Of a stretch of 46,259 nucleotides of DNA, positions 20,475 to 29,900 are shown piece after piece. The translations under genes were made by a program, and so were the position numbers. Position 1 is the first letter of the stretch. Each line of letters starts with the position of its first letter. Below the pieces are notes generated by a model that ran no database searches, was not told the DNA's origin, and was given only the letters and a program-made list of their open reading frames with translations. This stretch comes from Prevotella sp. (GTDB lineage: Bacteria; Bacteroidota; Bacteroidia; Bacteroidales; Bacteroidaceae). Location: NCBI GenBank assembly GCA_017412705.1, contig JAFPWS010000019.1, forward strand, positions 1 through 46,259, given 5' to 3'.

Positions 20475-21719
20475 TTATATCTTGACCATAGCCGACTGGC
20501 TGCGACTGGCGAGCTGGCCTATCTCCGTGCCATAACTCTGGTGGAGTGCTGATCTTAGTAGCACCTCTTTCTCAGCCCCACCAGTCAGCCGCAGGTATCT
20601 GATACCCATTTCCGGCGAGATTTCCTTGTCGGGCAAGGCCACTCCATTCAGGCGAGCCCACACCATGTAGTCGCCATTGCGAGTTTTCTTGATTCCGCTC
20701 TCGTTGAAGTGTAACGTCTCGCTCAGCCCTTCGTTCAGCGGACTTGGCTTCAGGGCGAGTTCATCCCTCGACTCCATGATTCGGCTTTCCTCAATCAGCA
20801 CGTCGTCTGCCTCGGAGAGAACCTTGTCCACCTGATTGATGTTCAGCATCACCATTGGCACGACGAGACCGTTGCCAGCGTCCCTGTCCCAAAGCTTCAG
20901 ATGATACTTGCTGGCCATTGACACAGCATCATCACCAAGAGCCTCGTAGAAGTCCTGCTGCTCCATCAGCACATGGTCGTATCTATACTTGCTGAGGACG
21001 GAGTTGTACTCCTCCATAATATCATCCGTCTTCAACTGTCGCTGCATCTCCACTGAATTATAGTGTACCAGCGTGTGCTGCACATCTTCAAGCTGAGCAT
21101 TCAGCATGTTACCCGTACTGATGATATAATCTCCACCACCCATCATGTTCCATTCCTGGCCGTAAACCAGATTGATGGTCTTGCCGCTTTCTGTGAACAG
21201 ATTGACGCTTCCGCGACCATCGAAATCGACGAAGCATATATTCTCTGTGGTGTCAATGTCTCCATCTTTCGAGTAGATGGGGAACTTCCCAAGATTCACG
21301 ATGGCATGATCATTGCGGTTAAACTGAAGCAGATAGTCCAAGGTCTGCTGAGCCAAAGAAAGCCTGTCGGCCTTATAATCCTCTTCCGATGACCATCCGG
21401 CAACATTGATTTCAGCGTGTTTCCAGAGACTGATAGGATTCAAGTCAGTGAGCAACAATGCTTCTCTGCCCTCATCACTGAGATTCATCCAACTGATGGC
21501 ACCTTCATCCATCAGCTTTTCACTCGTCTGCCACCCCAGCACTTCAAAGAGTCTGTTGGCATCATCGTCAAAGACAAACCATTTGTCACCATTCGGGAAA
21601 ATAACAATGTCATCACGCCGGTTCTTTATCTTCGCGCGCTCTTTTCTCAAAGCCCGGATGTCATCCGAGAAAGTTTCGTCATTACCGACGGTATTCATTC
21701 TTTCTTGTGTCATAGTCAT
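20475..21719 (-). CDS. Protein with MutS domain-I-like segments, element-borne
   Basis: A 414-residue protein. Residues 233-305 (EEYNSVLSKYRYDHVLMEQQ, DFYEALGDDAVSMASKYHLK, VPMVMLNINQVDKVL) follow the consensus of the MutS mismatch-recognition domain I, including the FYE triad (257-259). Residues 34-66 (RDDIVIFPNGDKWFVFDDDA) look like a second, more degenerate copy. MutS core, ATPase and clamp domains are absent. The last ~70 residues (NGDYMVWARLNGVALPDKEI; MGIRYLRLTGGAEKEVLLRS) match the end of the ArdC-like protein at 25034. It could bind irregular or entering DNA; this is inference. Its ATG overlaps the stop codon of the lipoprotein gene by one base (TAATG). Confidence 0.65.
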   Translation of the reverse strand: MTMTQERMNTVGNDETFSDDIRALRKERAKIKNRRDDIVIFPNGDKWFVFDDDANRLFEVLGWQTSEKLMDEGAISWMNLSDEGREALLLTDLNPISLWKHAEINVAGWSSEEDYKADRLSLAQQTLDYLLQFNRNDHAIVNLGKFPIYSKDGDIDTTENICFVDFDGRGSVNLFTESGKTINLVYGQEWNMMGGGDYIISTGNMLNAQLEDVQHTLVHYNSVEMQRQLKTDDIMEEYNSVLSKYRYDHVLMEQQDFYEALGDDAVSMASKYHLKLWDRDAGNGLVVPMVMLNINQVDKVLSEADDVLIEESRIMESRDELALKPSPLNEGLSETLHFNESGIKKTRNGDYMVWARLNGVALPDKEISPEMGIRYLRLTGGAEKEVLLRSALHQSYGTEIGQLASRSQSAMVKI

Positions 21720-26613: not shown

Positions 26614-27567
26614 TTATAGCTTCAGTCCCAGACTGGTTTCCTGCTTCACCCCCATCTTCTCGTTGATTTCGGGAGTGAGGTACTTGGCTGCCAGCTGCTG
26701 ACGGGTAGCCGTCTTGGTATGGAACAGCGCATAGCCGTCATCGAAGCTCAGTTCCTTCTTGGGCGTGATGCCACGGTCGCCCATATCGGCAGAGATACGC
26801 CACTTGTTGTCCGCGTCTTTTGAGACACGGATATCCTTGATCTCTGCTCCTTCGGGCAGTTTGAACTGTTCGTAGTGTGAAGCGAGGTGAAGACGCTGAC
26901 CAAAATTCTTCTCCACAAGCTGGGAAGGAGTGGTCACACGGTCGAAATAAGCATTCAGGTCATGGTTGGGGAGCGTTGTTGACATCTTCTGCTCACCCAC
27001 CTGGGCGTAGAGCATCCACTTTCCAAAGTTCTGGCTTTGTTCGTTAGCCTCCTTATAGACGTTCATCTTGTCGATGACGCGACCATCGGAAAGCGTGTTG
27101 GAAGCTTTGTATTCCTCAACAGGAATCTGCTTCATCAGCTTGGTGGGGTAGTAGGTCTGCATCAGCTGTTCCACTGTGCGTTCCTTCTTGCTGTAGGCGG
27201 CAACATCCTCTGGAGTCATCTTCTGTGGATGCAGTTCCTTGCCGTCAATCTTGGCGGTAAAGAACCAGTCCTCCGGATTCTTGTTCGACTGGTAGGCATG
27301 GGCATGAGTGACCTTGCCACCATTGACAGTCACCATCTGCGGCTCACGGTGCTGCTTCTCGCCCTGCTGCTCTTCCTTCTTGGGAGCTTCAGCGGCAGAC
27401 TGCTGCTTGCCGTCAGCCTTCTTCTCAGTCTTGGTGGATGACTCTTTCGGCTCCTCCTCTGATGTGGATGCGGCCTTATTCTTACTTGCAGACTTTTTCT
27501 TTAGCTGGGTTTCTGCCACGGCCTCGACGGGTTGCTGCTTAACCTCTTGATCCTTTTTCTTTGCCAT
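26614..27567 (-). CDS. DUF4099/DUF3945-like protein with repeated beta modules
   Basis: A 317-residue protein from the ATG at 27567, which has a purine-rich site upstream; 13 upstream codons are discarded. The first ~90 residues are Lys/Glu/Gln-rich and disordered (AETQLKKKSASKNKAASTSE). After that come two or three similar modules, each a beta-rich segment and a helix: WFFTAKIDGKELHPQKMTPE, WMLYAQVGEQKMSTTLPNHD and WRISADMGDRGITPKKELSF. Similar modules end the proteins at 20475 and 25034. It ends SLGLKL. Proteins of the DUF3945/DUF4099 type are frequent in Bacteroidota conjugative elements without known role. A ~200-nt structured, non-coding stretch lies just upstream. Confidence 0.65.
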   Translation of the reverse strand: MAKKKDQEVKQQPVEAVAETQLKKKSASKNKAASTSEEEPKESSTKTEKKADGKQQSAAEAPKKEEQQGEKQHREPQMVTVNGGKVTHAHAYQSNKNPEDWFFTAKIDGKELHPQKMTPEDVAAYSKKERTVEQLMQTYYPTKLMKQIPVEEYKASNTLSDGRVIDKMNVYKEANEQSQNFGKWMLYAQVGEQKMSTTLPNHDLNAYFDRVTTPSQLVEKNFGQRLHLASHYEQFKLPEGAEIKDIRVSKDADNKWRISADMGDRGITPKKELSFDDGYALFHTKTATRQQLAAKYLTPEINEKMGVKQETSLGLKL

Positions 27568-27634
27568 AATCGTTTTTATTAAAAGTTTATGAAAGGTAAA
27601 CTTCACTCAAAAACTGGGTTGTTACTCACCTGCT

Positions 27635-27850
27635 CATCAGGCGTATTTTCCCATCGATTATGCTTGGAAGCAAGGTGTTGCCACCCTACACCAATCGTTT
27701 TGCAACGTGGTTGTTGGAACCTTACCAGACCTTATTTCAAGGCCTGGCAAGGGGGAATATAAATAGAATGGCAACATTGTATTCAGGCATATCTTCAAGT
27801 GAAAATGCGCCATCGCCTATCTTTAGGCAATCAGGGAATACAATTTAAAG
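27635..27850 (-). ncRNA. Candidate structured RNA between two DUF4099-type genes
   Basis: The 407-bp gap 27568-27974 has no gene. On the minus strand 27720-27752 folds into a fully paired 14-bp hairpin: CCTT-G-CCAG-G-CCTT, loop GAAAT, AAGG-T-CTGG-T-AAGG, in which two pairs are G-U (they would be A/C mismatches on the plus strand). Next to it TTGTATTC (27776-27783) pairs with GAATACAA (27836-27843), enclosing GCAT/ATGC and GCCTA/TAGGC hairpins, a three-way junction. GGTGT/ACACC (about 27673-27692) and CCTG/CAGG (about 27629-27640) add further hairpins. CCACC/GGTGG lies upstream. No T run follows the main stems, so they are not simple terminators. I do not recognise a known RNA class. Confidence 0.55.
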
Positions 27851-27974
27851 TCCCCACCTTATGGTACTCGGATTCGGGTTACGGTGGTTATAATATTAAA
27901 GCGACCCATCAAATGGTGCAACTGATATCTTATATAATCTCTCTTACCTTATTATATATAATACAGTGGGTTGA

Positions 27975-28748
27975 TTACAGCTTCAGTCCGGAGCTGTTCT
28001 TCTCTTCTTTCTTAACGGTATTCTTTACGTTATCCTTCTTACTCTGCTCATTGACACACTTCTGGTATTCCCAGCGGTTCTCGTCCGTCTGGACATAGCC
28101 CATGTAGTCGTCATGTTCAAGGTCGTACTTGATCTTCATCTGACGGTTCCATTCATCCATATCGCCATTGACCACCTTAAAGCCCTGCTGCTCACGGAGG
28201 TCAACACCGACAACGACCTTCTGGTCACCGACATTCAGTTCAATAGGCTTGCCTTCCTGTGCCTGCTGTTTCTGGTTCGCTCCCAGCTCAATGTGGTTGA
28301 TCTTCTCCATGTCTTTAAGCTTTTCAGCAATGCGGACATGGGCGACGCTGCGCGGAATGAGAGCATTGGTCTCTTTGTCGAGCTGGATGAACTTCATCTT
28401 GCGGATGCCGTTCTCTTCCAGTTCCTTACGGATGACCTCACCGTTCTTCACACGATTCAACTCACGGGGAGTCAGACAATAGTCGTTCTGAATTTCCTTT
28501 GTACGCTGGTAGGTAAGCAGTTTGACACTACCGTCATCATCACGGCTGAGCTGAATCTTCATAGGAATGGCAATCGTCTTACCGTTCTTGGCCTTGATGC
28601 GGGCTTCGATAATGGGTGACACCCTTCCATTGATGATCGGATCAACCAAATTCTTGGGCATCGATAGGAATGCATCCCTGCTGATGCCAAGCTTCTCCAA
28701 CTTCTCATAAGGAATTTCTTCCTCTAAAAAAGAATATTTACTTATCAT
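27975..28748 (-). CDS. DUF3945/DUF4099 domain protein
   Basis: A 257-residue protein. Residues about 5-110 (EEEIPYEKLEKLGISRDAFL; IPMKIQLSRDDDGSVKLLTY) match the DUF4099 type of domain seen at the start of element-borne Bacteroidota proteins. The rest (LTPRELNRVKNGEVIRKELE; SVAHVRIAEKLKDMEKINHI) resembles DUF3945. There is no signal peptide. It is the first gene of the minus-strand DNA-processing operon, starting from the divergent promoter at 28766-28784. It ends SSGLKL, almost the same as the SLGLKL tail of the gene at 26614. The function is unknown; a nucleic-acid-linked role is likely by context. Confidence 0.7.
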   Translation of the reverse strand: MISKYSFLEEEIPYEKLEKLGISRDAFLSMPKNLVDPIINGRVSPIIEARIKAKNGKTIAIPMKIQLSRDDDGSVKLLTYQRTKEIQNDYCLTPRELNRVKNGEVIRKELEENGIRKMKFIQLDKETNALIPRSVAHVRIAEKLKDMEKINHIELGANQKQQAQEGKPIELNVGDQKVVVGVDLREQQGFKVVNGDMDEWNRQMKIKYDLEHDDYMGYVQTDENRWEYQKCVNEQSKKDNVKNTVKKEEKNSSGLKL

Positions 28749-28765
28749 ATTTGTTAAATATTGAT

Positions 28766-28784
28766 TAACTTTGCTGCAAAGTTA
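28766..28784. promoter_or_regulatory. Face-to-face divergent promoters in one palindrome
   Basis: TAACTTTG on the plus strand (28766-28773) and TAACTTTG on the minus strand (28777-28784) form the 19-bp palindrome TAACTTTGCTGCAAAGTTA. Each fits the TAnnTTTG -7 box, one for the peptidase gene at 28809 and one for the operon starting at 28748. The two polymerases would compete for the same site. Confidence 0.55.
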
Positions 28785-28808
28785 CGGACATTTTATCAGA
28801 AAAGTAAC

Positions 28809-29900
28809 ATGAGTAGAGTGTTTTTTGTGTTTTTATTACTAGAATTGGCATATATCAAGAGTTATGCCCAGTTTTTCACCATTATGCCCGATTCTGGTCA
28901 ATCAACGAGATTGGCCGATGAGACTGCCTATGGTGACAGTGTAAACATCCCTTTAGTCCTGCATTCAGACACTATAAGGACGGAAGCAGACAGTCTGATG
29001 ATGGCTAAAAGGGAAGAAAACCTGTTTCCGTCATCCAAAGGCCTTCCTATCTTGATAGAAAAGAGAGTGCCGGTATTTGGACACGTGAGAAACAACCCCC
29101 TTTTGCAGCTTCTCGAACAACGGGTGACGGTCTGCCTCCCCTTGGATTATATGACTGTCAACTCCAGATACGGCTACCGAAAGGATCCTATATATAGATG
29201 TGAGCGTTTCCATGACGGTATAGACTTGAAATGTAACTATGGCAATGTATATGCTATGATGCCAGGTATCGTCAAGGAGGTTCATCGCGGCAACAGGGGC
29301 TACGGGAACTATGTCATTCTCCAACATGGAAGTATCGAGTGCCTGTATGGACATCTGAGCGTCATCGTCGTTAAAGAGCATGATGTTGTAGAAGCAGGCG
29401 ACATCGTGGCGATCTCTGGAAATACAGGAAAATCGACGGGGCCACACCTCCATTTGCGGCTGAGGAAAGACGGGAAAAGCATCGACCCGCAGCCCTTTGT
29501 CAACTATCTGAATGACTATATCGATGACCTTCAGGAAAGGATAGCGACCTTGAAGTTCGGTGGAAAGCCTGACAGGGAACTGAATATCGAGAATCTTGCC
29601 AGAGTATTGGAACAATACCATGTCAAATATCCCAAGATAGTCATTGCCCAATCCCTTTTGGAAACGGGCTACTACACGTCGCGGGTTTGCTGGGAGTGCA
29701 AGAACCTTTTTGGCCTGCGCCGTCCAAGTGATGGCAGCTACTATAAGTTCGACCGATGGGAGGACAGCGTGAAAGCTTATCGGGACTATGTGCAGTATAA
29801 GTACAAGGGTGGTGACTATCTCCAGTTCCTCAACCGAATCGGCTATGCAGAGGATAAGTCGTATGTCCTGAAGGTGCGCCAGATTGCCAAAACCTTATAA
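28809..29900 (+). CDS. Secreted M23 endopeptidase/glucosaminidase, conjugation-associated
   Basis: A 363-residue protein from the ATG at 28809 (signal peptide MSRVFFVFLLLELAYIKSYA). Residues about 118-225 are a LytM/M23 metallopeptidase with all ligands visible: HDGID (H135, D139) and HLH (H213, H215). Residues about 262-363 are a glucosaminidase/lysozyme-like domain (YPKIVIAQSLLETGYYTSRV, likely catalytic E285; NLFGLRR). Cutting both peptide and glycan bonds, it would open the peptidoglycan for the secretion channel. It is the only plus-strand gene of the element body and ends 3 bases before the oppositely oriented traX stop codon. Confidence 0.9.
   Translation: MSRVFFVFLLLELAYIKSYAQFFTIMPDSGQSTRLADETAYGDSVNIPLVLHSDTIRTEADSLMMAKREENLFPSSKGLPILIEKRVPVFGHVRNNPLLQLLEQRVTVCLPLDYMTVNSRYGYRKDPIYRCERFHDGIDLKCNYGNVYAMMPGIVKEVHRGNRGYGNYVILQHGSIECLYGHLSVIVVKEHDVVEAGDIVAISGNTGKSTGPHLHLRLRKDGKSIDPQPFVNYLNDYIDDLQERIATLKFGGKPDRELNIENLARVLEQYHVKYPKIVIAQSLLETGYYTSRVCWECKNLFGLRRPSDGSYYKFDRWEDSVKAYRDYVQYKYKGGDYLQFLNRIGYAEDKSYVLKVRQIAKTL

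Follow-up and report, generated by a model that had tools for sequence, protein, structure and literature searches.

What is encoded by a 407-bp gap between two genes of a Prevotella conjugative element? The gap lies in a 46,259-nucleotide contig (contig C19 of a 3.4-Mb Prevotella sp. assembly that is 86% complete), referred to here as the window. Among the proteins encoded in the window are a TraG-type ATPase, TraM, DUF4138 proteins, a coupling protein, and ArdC-like and Toprim proteins; the window is therefore a Bacteroidota conjugative element, of Prevotella-type bacteria. The gap (27568-27974, minus strand; its length presumes ATG 27567 as the start codon of the downstream gene) and both neighboring genes are on the same strand. 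Directly upstream is a DUF4099/DUF3945 gene of 257 aa (27975-28748, minus strand; Pfam PF13351 at 1.7e-15 and PF13101 at 1.1e-8), and downstream is a gene of 317 aa (26614-27567, minus strand), followed by the ArdC-like and Toprim genes. The first-pass annotation had called both neighbors DUF4099-type: the length of the gap and the assignment of the upstream gene stand, but a Pfam scan of the downstream protein stays empty up to E 1, so that this label is not supported for it. Relatives of this protein at loci L033 (421 aa), L024, L008, and L028 have an extra N-terminal MutS_I domain that the window copy lacks; a separate MutS_I gene is present in the window at 20475-21719.

Fold of the window copy

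The gap folds more stably than expected on its coding strand (z -6.29, versus -3.97 on the reverse). Within it, positions 27635-27850 have a minimum free energy (MFE) of -77.8 kcal/mol as minus-strand RNA (z -6.55) and of -72.4 kcal/mol as plus-strand RNA (z -4.78), and none of 200 shuffles did as well on either strand; folded as DNA, the same stretch gives z -5.54 for the minus and -4.13 for the plus strand. The strong minus-strand fold reported at first is thus real relative to shuffles and better than that of the plus strand. The plus strand folds well too because any inverted repeat must. Within a single sequence the preference for one strand is gradual, and it becomes clearer with relatives.

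Read 5' to 3' on the minus strand, the RNA begins with H0, an AU-rich hairpin formed by UAUAUAAU and AUUAUAUA (27931-27958), in which two pairs are changed on both sides within the window's own lineage (lineage A, see below). A first sequence box, GGG-N3-CUUUAAU (27895-27907), and a second, CUUUAA (27845-27850), which starts 51 nt past the start of the first, are separated by hairpin H2 (27854-27887; CCACC/GGUGG in the window and CCACA/UGUGG in relatives, one of five pairs being changed on both sides), whose energy alone does not stand out from that of shuffles in the window copy. The boxes are followed by a three-way junction (27776-27844) closed by AUUGUAUUC and GAAUACAAU. The closing helix is where it had been placed but is 9 bp long (27776-27784 with 27836-27844) rather than 8, and it encloses two hairpins, at 27812-27831 and 27786-27811 (AUUGCC/GGCGAU and GGNGCAU/AUGCC). 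The junction is contained in the MFE structure of the whole gap, while longer-range pairs replace it when 27635-27850 is folded alone.

Helix P4 (GUUGCCA/UGGCAAC, 27677-27775; helices 7-9 of the lineage A alignment) encloses the P5 and P6 hairpins. P5 (27720-27752) reads on the plus strand as CCTTACCAGACCTT, 5 nt, and AAGGCCTGGCAAGG, forming a helix of 14 pairs in which two A.C mismatches turn into G.U pairs in minus-strand RNA; as had been claimed, this 14-bp hairpin is fully paired only as minus-strand RNA. With its arms aligned by hand, relatives show U-A/G-C and G.U/U-A exchanges. Hairpin P8 (27627-27643) is CGCCUG/CAGGUG in the window and CGCUGA/UCAGUG in relatives, again with hand-aligned arms, and the predicted fold ends with P9 (27609-27653), in which UGGG/CCCA is followed by GUUUUU, a weak terminator-like end of -12.4 kcal/mol.

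A structured RNA region under selection at one site in related elements

A search for related loci returned 11 loci, and a protein search of 398 genomes of the genus found 29 places in 24 genomes, which were assigned to lineages by the sequence after each DUF4099 stop codon. Of these places, 17 fall in lineages that bear the boxes (seven in A, four in B, five in C, and one in D), and the remaining 12 lack boxes. Among 399 genomes of the family, 24 places were found, comprising six with boxes, the doubtful L068, and 17 without boxes. The signature of GGG-N3-CUUUAAU and, 46-51 nt on (start to start), CUUUAA is common to lineages A, B, C, and D; within lineage B it is present in three of four members, with one mismatch in L096, and lineage E, which consists of L024, has CUUUA twice at a spacing of 50. 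L068 has a TCTGGAAAATT stretch in common with lineage D but no boxes, and a search of 121 genomes of its host genus turned up no further gene at E <= 1e-60. At all 17 box-less family places, a long ORF begins 7-15 nt after the DUF4099 stop; the RNA module is therefore an added stretch.

The full box pattern, which was defined after the sequences had been seen, never occurred when each of 14 gaps was shuffled 2000 times. In 23 genomes chosen for bearing a DUF4099 gene there were 22 matches to it, 18 of them at this site, and two of the four off-site matches look like one repeat type, judging from the one read (L117). At L117, tandem intergenic repeats (1478-1620, GGAGGGGTTGGGGGAGGCTTTAATAT) match the pattern by chance or likeness, and a further match lies in G046:C47.

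The gene that follows is of one family throughout lineages A, B, C, and E, mostly with the MutS_I domain; the lineage D contig ends within the gap. The lineage C protein has a further N-terminal part that is phosphoribosyltransferase-like below threshold, and at L008 (598-2385) a 595-aa frame fuses such a part (E 0.0028, below the cut-off) to the MutS_I-bearing downstream protein. At L098, L108, L111, and L113, which lack boxes, a frame of 466-480 aa, cut by the end of the locus, lies 55-71 nt past the DUF4099 stop and by eye begins phosphoribosyltransferase-like. A lineage B gap has an inserted frame of 186 aa (L026, 2347-2907) with a sub-threshold DarA_C match. On a contig titled Mogibacterium sp. 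MAG (L015), the DUF4099 gene and gap are 100% identical to those of the window, which is either mis-binning or very recent transfer. On a tree of DUF4099 proteins, lineages A, D, and E fall in one clade (support 85/87) and B and C elsewhere; the presence of the RNA changes twice on this tree, compared with a shuffled mean of 15.6.

The noncoding gap is better kept than the neutral sites beside it. Relative to L025 and L022, the window is 67.5% and 68.5% identical across the gap over ungapped columns (24 and 26 gap columns), compared with 44% (30/68) and 49% (32/65) at fourfold sites of the DUF4099 gene, and the gap is therefore under purifying selection. Pairing is kept as well. In a lineage A alignment of four rows (the window, its near copy L020, L022, and L025) modeled on the window's own fold, 86.1% of 359 pair cells were kept, versus 36.8-47.9% with slid partners. 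Ten cells were changed on both sides, a number reached by one of 500 shuffles; the seven pairs changed on both sides were not above shuffles (reached by 53 of 500), and the 15 pair types fell under the shuffle mean of 17.0. MAFFT misplaces P5 and P8 in this lineage, with three of the six P8 pairs broken in two of four rows. Setting the P5 and P8 arms by hand, which leans towards structure, brings out exchanges of U-A to G-C, G.U to U-A, C-G to U-A, and similar, and nine hand-aligned helices then hold 183 Watson-Crick, 17 G.U, one A.C, and four other cells. In a lineage B alignment of four rows (L065 being cut at 270 nt), scored against the rows' own consensus structure, 96.8% of 249 pair cells were kept, versus 32.5-47.8% when slid, and five pairs were changed on both sides, which three of 500 shuffles reached. 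Few independent sequences stand behind this comparison, in which the number of pairs changed on both sides exceeds that of shuffles in lineage B but not in lineage A; the conservation of the gap and its pairing bear out the earlier proposal of a selected minus-strand RNA.

The strand preference extends to several lineages. The coding-strand z was below the reverse-strand z in all seven gaps of lineages A and B (with the lower MFE in six of seven), and also in lineages C and E. In lineage D, neither strand of the gap folds better than expected, and in L068 the reverse strand has the better fold; two control gaps without boxes gave z of -1.31 and 0.01. Sequence likeness between A and B is weak, and C resembles the other lineages in the boxes only. 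By inspection, A and B have in common the junction layout, with a second hairpin GGNGCAU/AUGCC, in sequences that otherwise differ, so that their homology rests mainly on place, boxes, and layout. That the lineages have the boxes in common and not much more suggests that the sequence evolves quickly around a recognition feature that stays fixed, possibly a protein site.

As for known classes, Rfam 15 gave no matches at the gathering score in the window or in six relatives, and at E up to 10 the only matches in 27400-28100 were to two snoRNAs (16.7 bits against a threshold of 75, and 15.2 against 38); the comparison with Rfam that had been suggested thus leaves the RNA outside the families of that catalog. 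Taken together, these elements carry at one site a structured RNA region on the coding strand that is under selection and outside Rfam.

Transcript boundaries and the function of the RNA

The only exact match on the minus strand of 27401-29000 to TAnnTTTG, the -7 type promoter motif of Bacteroidota, is a candidate operon promoter upstream of the DUF4099 gene (28777-28784, minus strand). The gap itself has no exact TAnnTTTG, with one 5-of-6 match at 27598, and its three sigma-70-type matches are no more than in shuffles. As the gap thus has no clear promoter, the DUF4099 transcript probably includes the RNA. At the other end, the absence of a T run asserted by the first-pass annotation does not hold, as UUUUU (27613-27609) follows the UGGG/CCCA stem (27653-27650 with 27618-27615). 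This weak stem followed by GUUUUU is the form of the end in lineage A and has internal loops in the window. Three lineage B members end in strong stems (L064, -27.1; L092, -22.2; L096, -39.7 kcal/mol), with UUUUU after the stem in L064 and L096 and no U run in L092. A terminator scan did not flag the terminator-like end. In lineage B, the 3' arm of the closing helix, GAGAAGAC, can also pair with a later GUCUUCUC, found as perfect copies ~40 nt before the next start codon in L064 and L092 and as a one-mismatch copy ~170 nt before it in L096; none is present in the part of L065 read, and no second partner was found in lineage A. Such a second partner for the closing helix would suit a switch.

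The reading that we favor, with a probability of about 0.5, is that the coding strand of the gap, within the DUF4099 operon, specifies a structured RNA of ~300-400 nt that acts in cis and sets downstream expression by termination or processing. The RNA would be made within the DUF4099 transcript, the boxes and junction would bind a factor or switch the fold, and either event would determine the amount of transcription, or of intact mRNA, that gets through to the downstream genes. This is the likeliest mechanism given the terminator-like end stem, strong in the three B members and weak in A. Position by itself does not discriminate between a leader, a small RNA, and a processing site, as the same neighbor gene families recur in lineages A, B, C, and E. 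The existence of elements without the module fits an accessory control element and also leaves room for a small RNA derived from the 3' end.

A discrete small RNA of this kind, processed from the 3' untranslated region of DUF4099 mRNA or transcribed from its own promoter and acting in trans, for example by holding down transfer genes, is a serious though clearly less probable alternative. The module is at the 3' end of DUF4099 in every lineage found, terminator-like hairpins close it in three lineage B members, and there is a precedent in RteR, a small RNA of the Bacteroidota conjugative element CTnDOT that inhibits transfer. RteR is ~90 nt long and has its own promoter near the tra operon, while the RNA described here is ~300-400 nt, inside another operon and without a clear promoter, and is set apart from RteR by description. 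Against this reading, the gap has no clear promoter of its own and no convincing copy was found elsewhere: 10 of 33 places in one search and 18 of the 22 box matches are at this site, and the off-site places, judging from the two read (L050 and L117), look like chance or low complexity.

That the gap instead works as single-stranded DNA in conjugation, folding in the transferred strand as a single-strand origin or promoter, is unlikely. The ArdC-like and Toprim neighbors resemble a leading region, and the minus strand folds well as DNA too. Departures from Watson-Crick pairing on the coding strand, however, are G.U rather than A.C, by 17 to 1 in hand-aligned lineage A and 33 to 1 in B, although the structures were chosen on the coding strand, and the ratio is 38 to 15 in the A alignment before adjustment. 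A Frpo-like promoter here would moreover require the plus strand to fold, and no relaxase family was recognized among the 40 window proteins scanned. A small protein gene is highly improbable. An ORF starts at the ATG in the GGNGCAU hairpin (MPEYNVAI in lineage A and MPREDYSPV in lineage B); in lineage B it stays open for 65-166 codons in all four members and overlaps the next start codon in L064 and L092. Its lineage A counterparts have just 17, 30, and 28 codons, however, and in the single pair L064 versus L092 the differences fall evenly over codon positions (11/11/10, last 33 codons), with three synonymous versus 22 non-synonymous codons. Finally, although this intergenic sequence is rich in hairpins, the chance that this is a dispersed repeat (REP or MITE) or a chance fold is close to negligible, as the gap has one match at E <= 0.001 in its own 3.4-Mb, 86% complete assembly, is kept at one site, and has a fold that 0 of 200 shuffles equaled.

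Relation to known RNAs and significance

To our knowledge, conjugative elements of Bacteroidota have few regulatory RNAs, namely RteR and the tetQ leader of CTnDOT. The latter, which acts by attenuation at the 5' end of its operon with a leader peptide, is a cis-acting mRNA structure, as is proposed for the gap RNA; the latter differs in being internal to its operon and without a supported leader peptide. Candidate structured RNAs outside Rfam have also been obtained by comparison from the human microbiome, including two near uvrC that are exclusive to Prevotella and one adjoining phage genes (PMC8040213). The gap RNA is, like these, a comparative candidate outside Rfam, and the main text of that study, supplementary tables apart, contains no occurrence of 'conjugati', 'mobile', or 'transposon'.

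A further and rather doubtful proposal is that the gap represents a fast-diverging RNA class private to Prevotella-type conjugative elements, functioning via two CUUUAA boxes ~50 nt apart. These might be recognized by a dedicated RNA-binding protein, perhaps the upstream DUF4099/DUF3945 protein, which would make with them a ribonucleoprotein switch governing transfer or gene expression of the element. The gap has close copies in two records titled as strains and not as MAGs, Prevotella sp. tc2-28 (100%) and Xylanibacter ruminicola D31d (98%), and tests are therefore feasible. On sequence grounds, the RNA probably sets the expression strength of its neighboring genes. A conserved RNA class tied to DUF4099 and DUF3945 genes would offer a testable entry to the control of expression in these elements, and the paired-box signature a means of finding more members.
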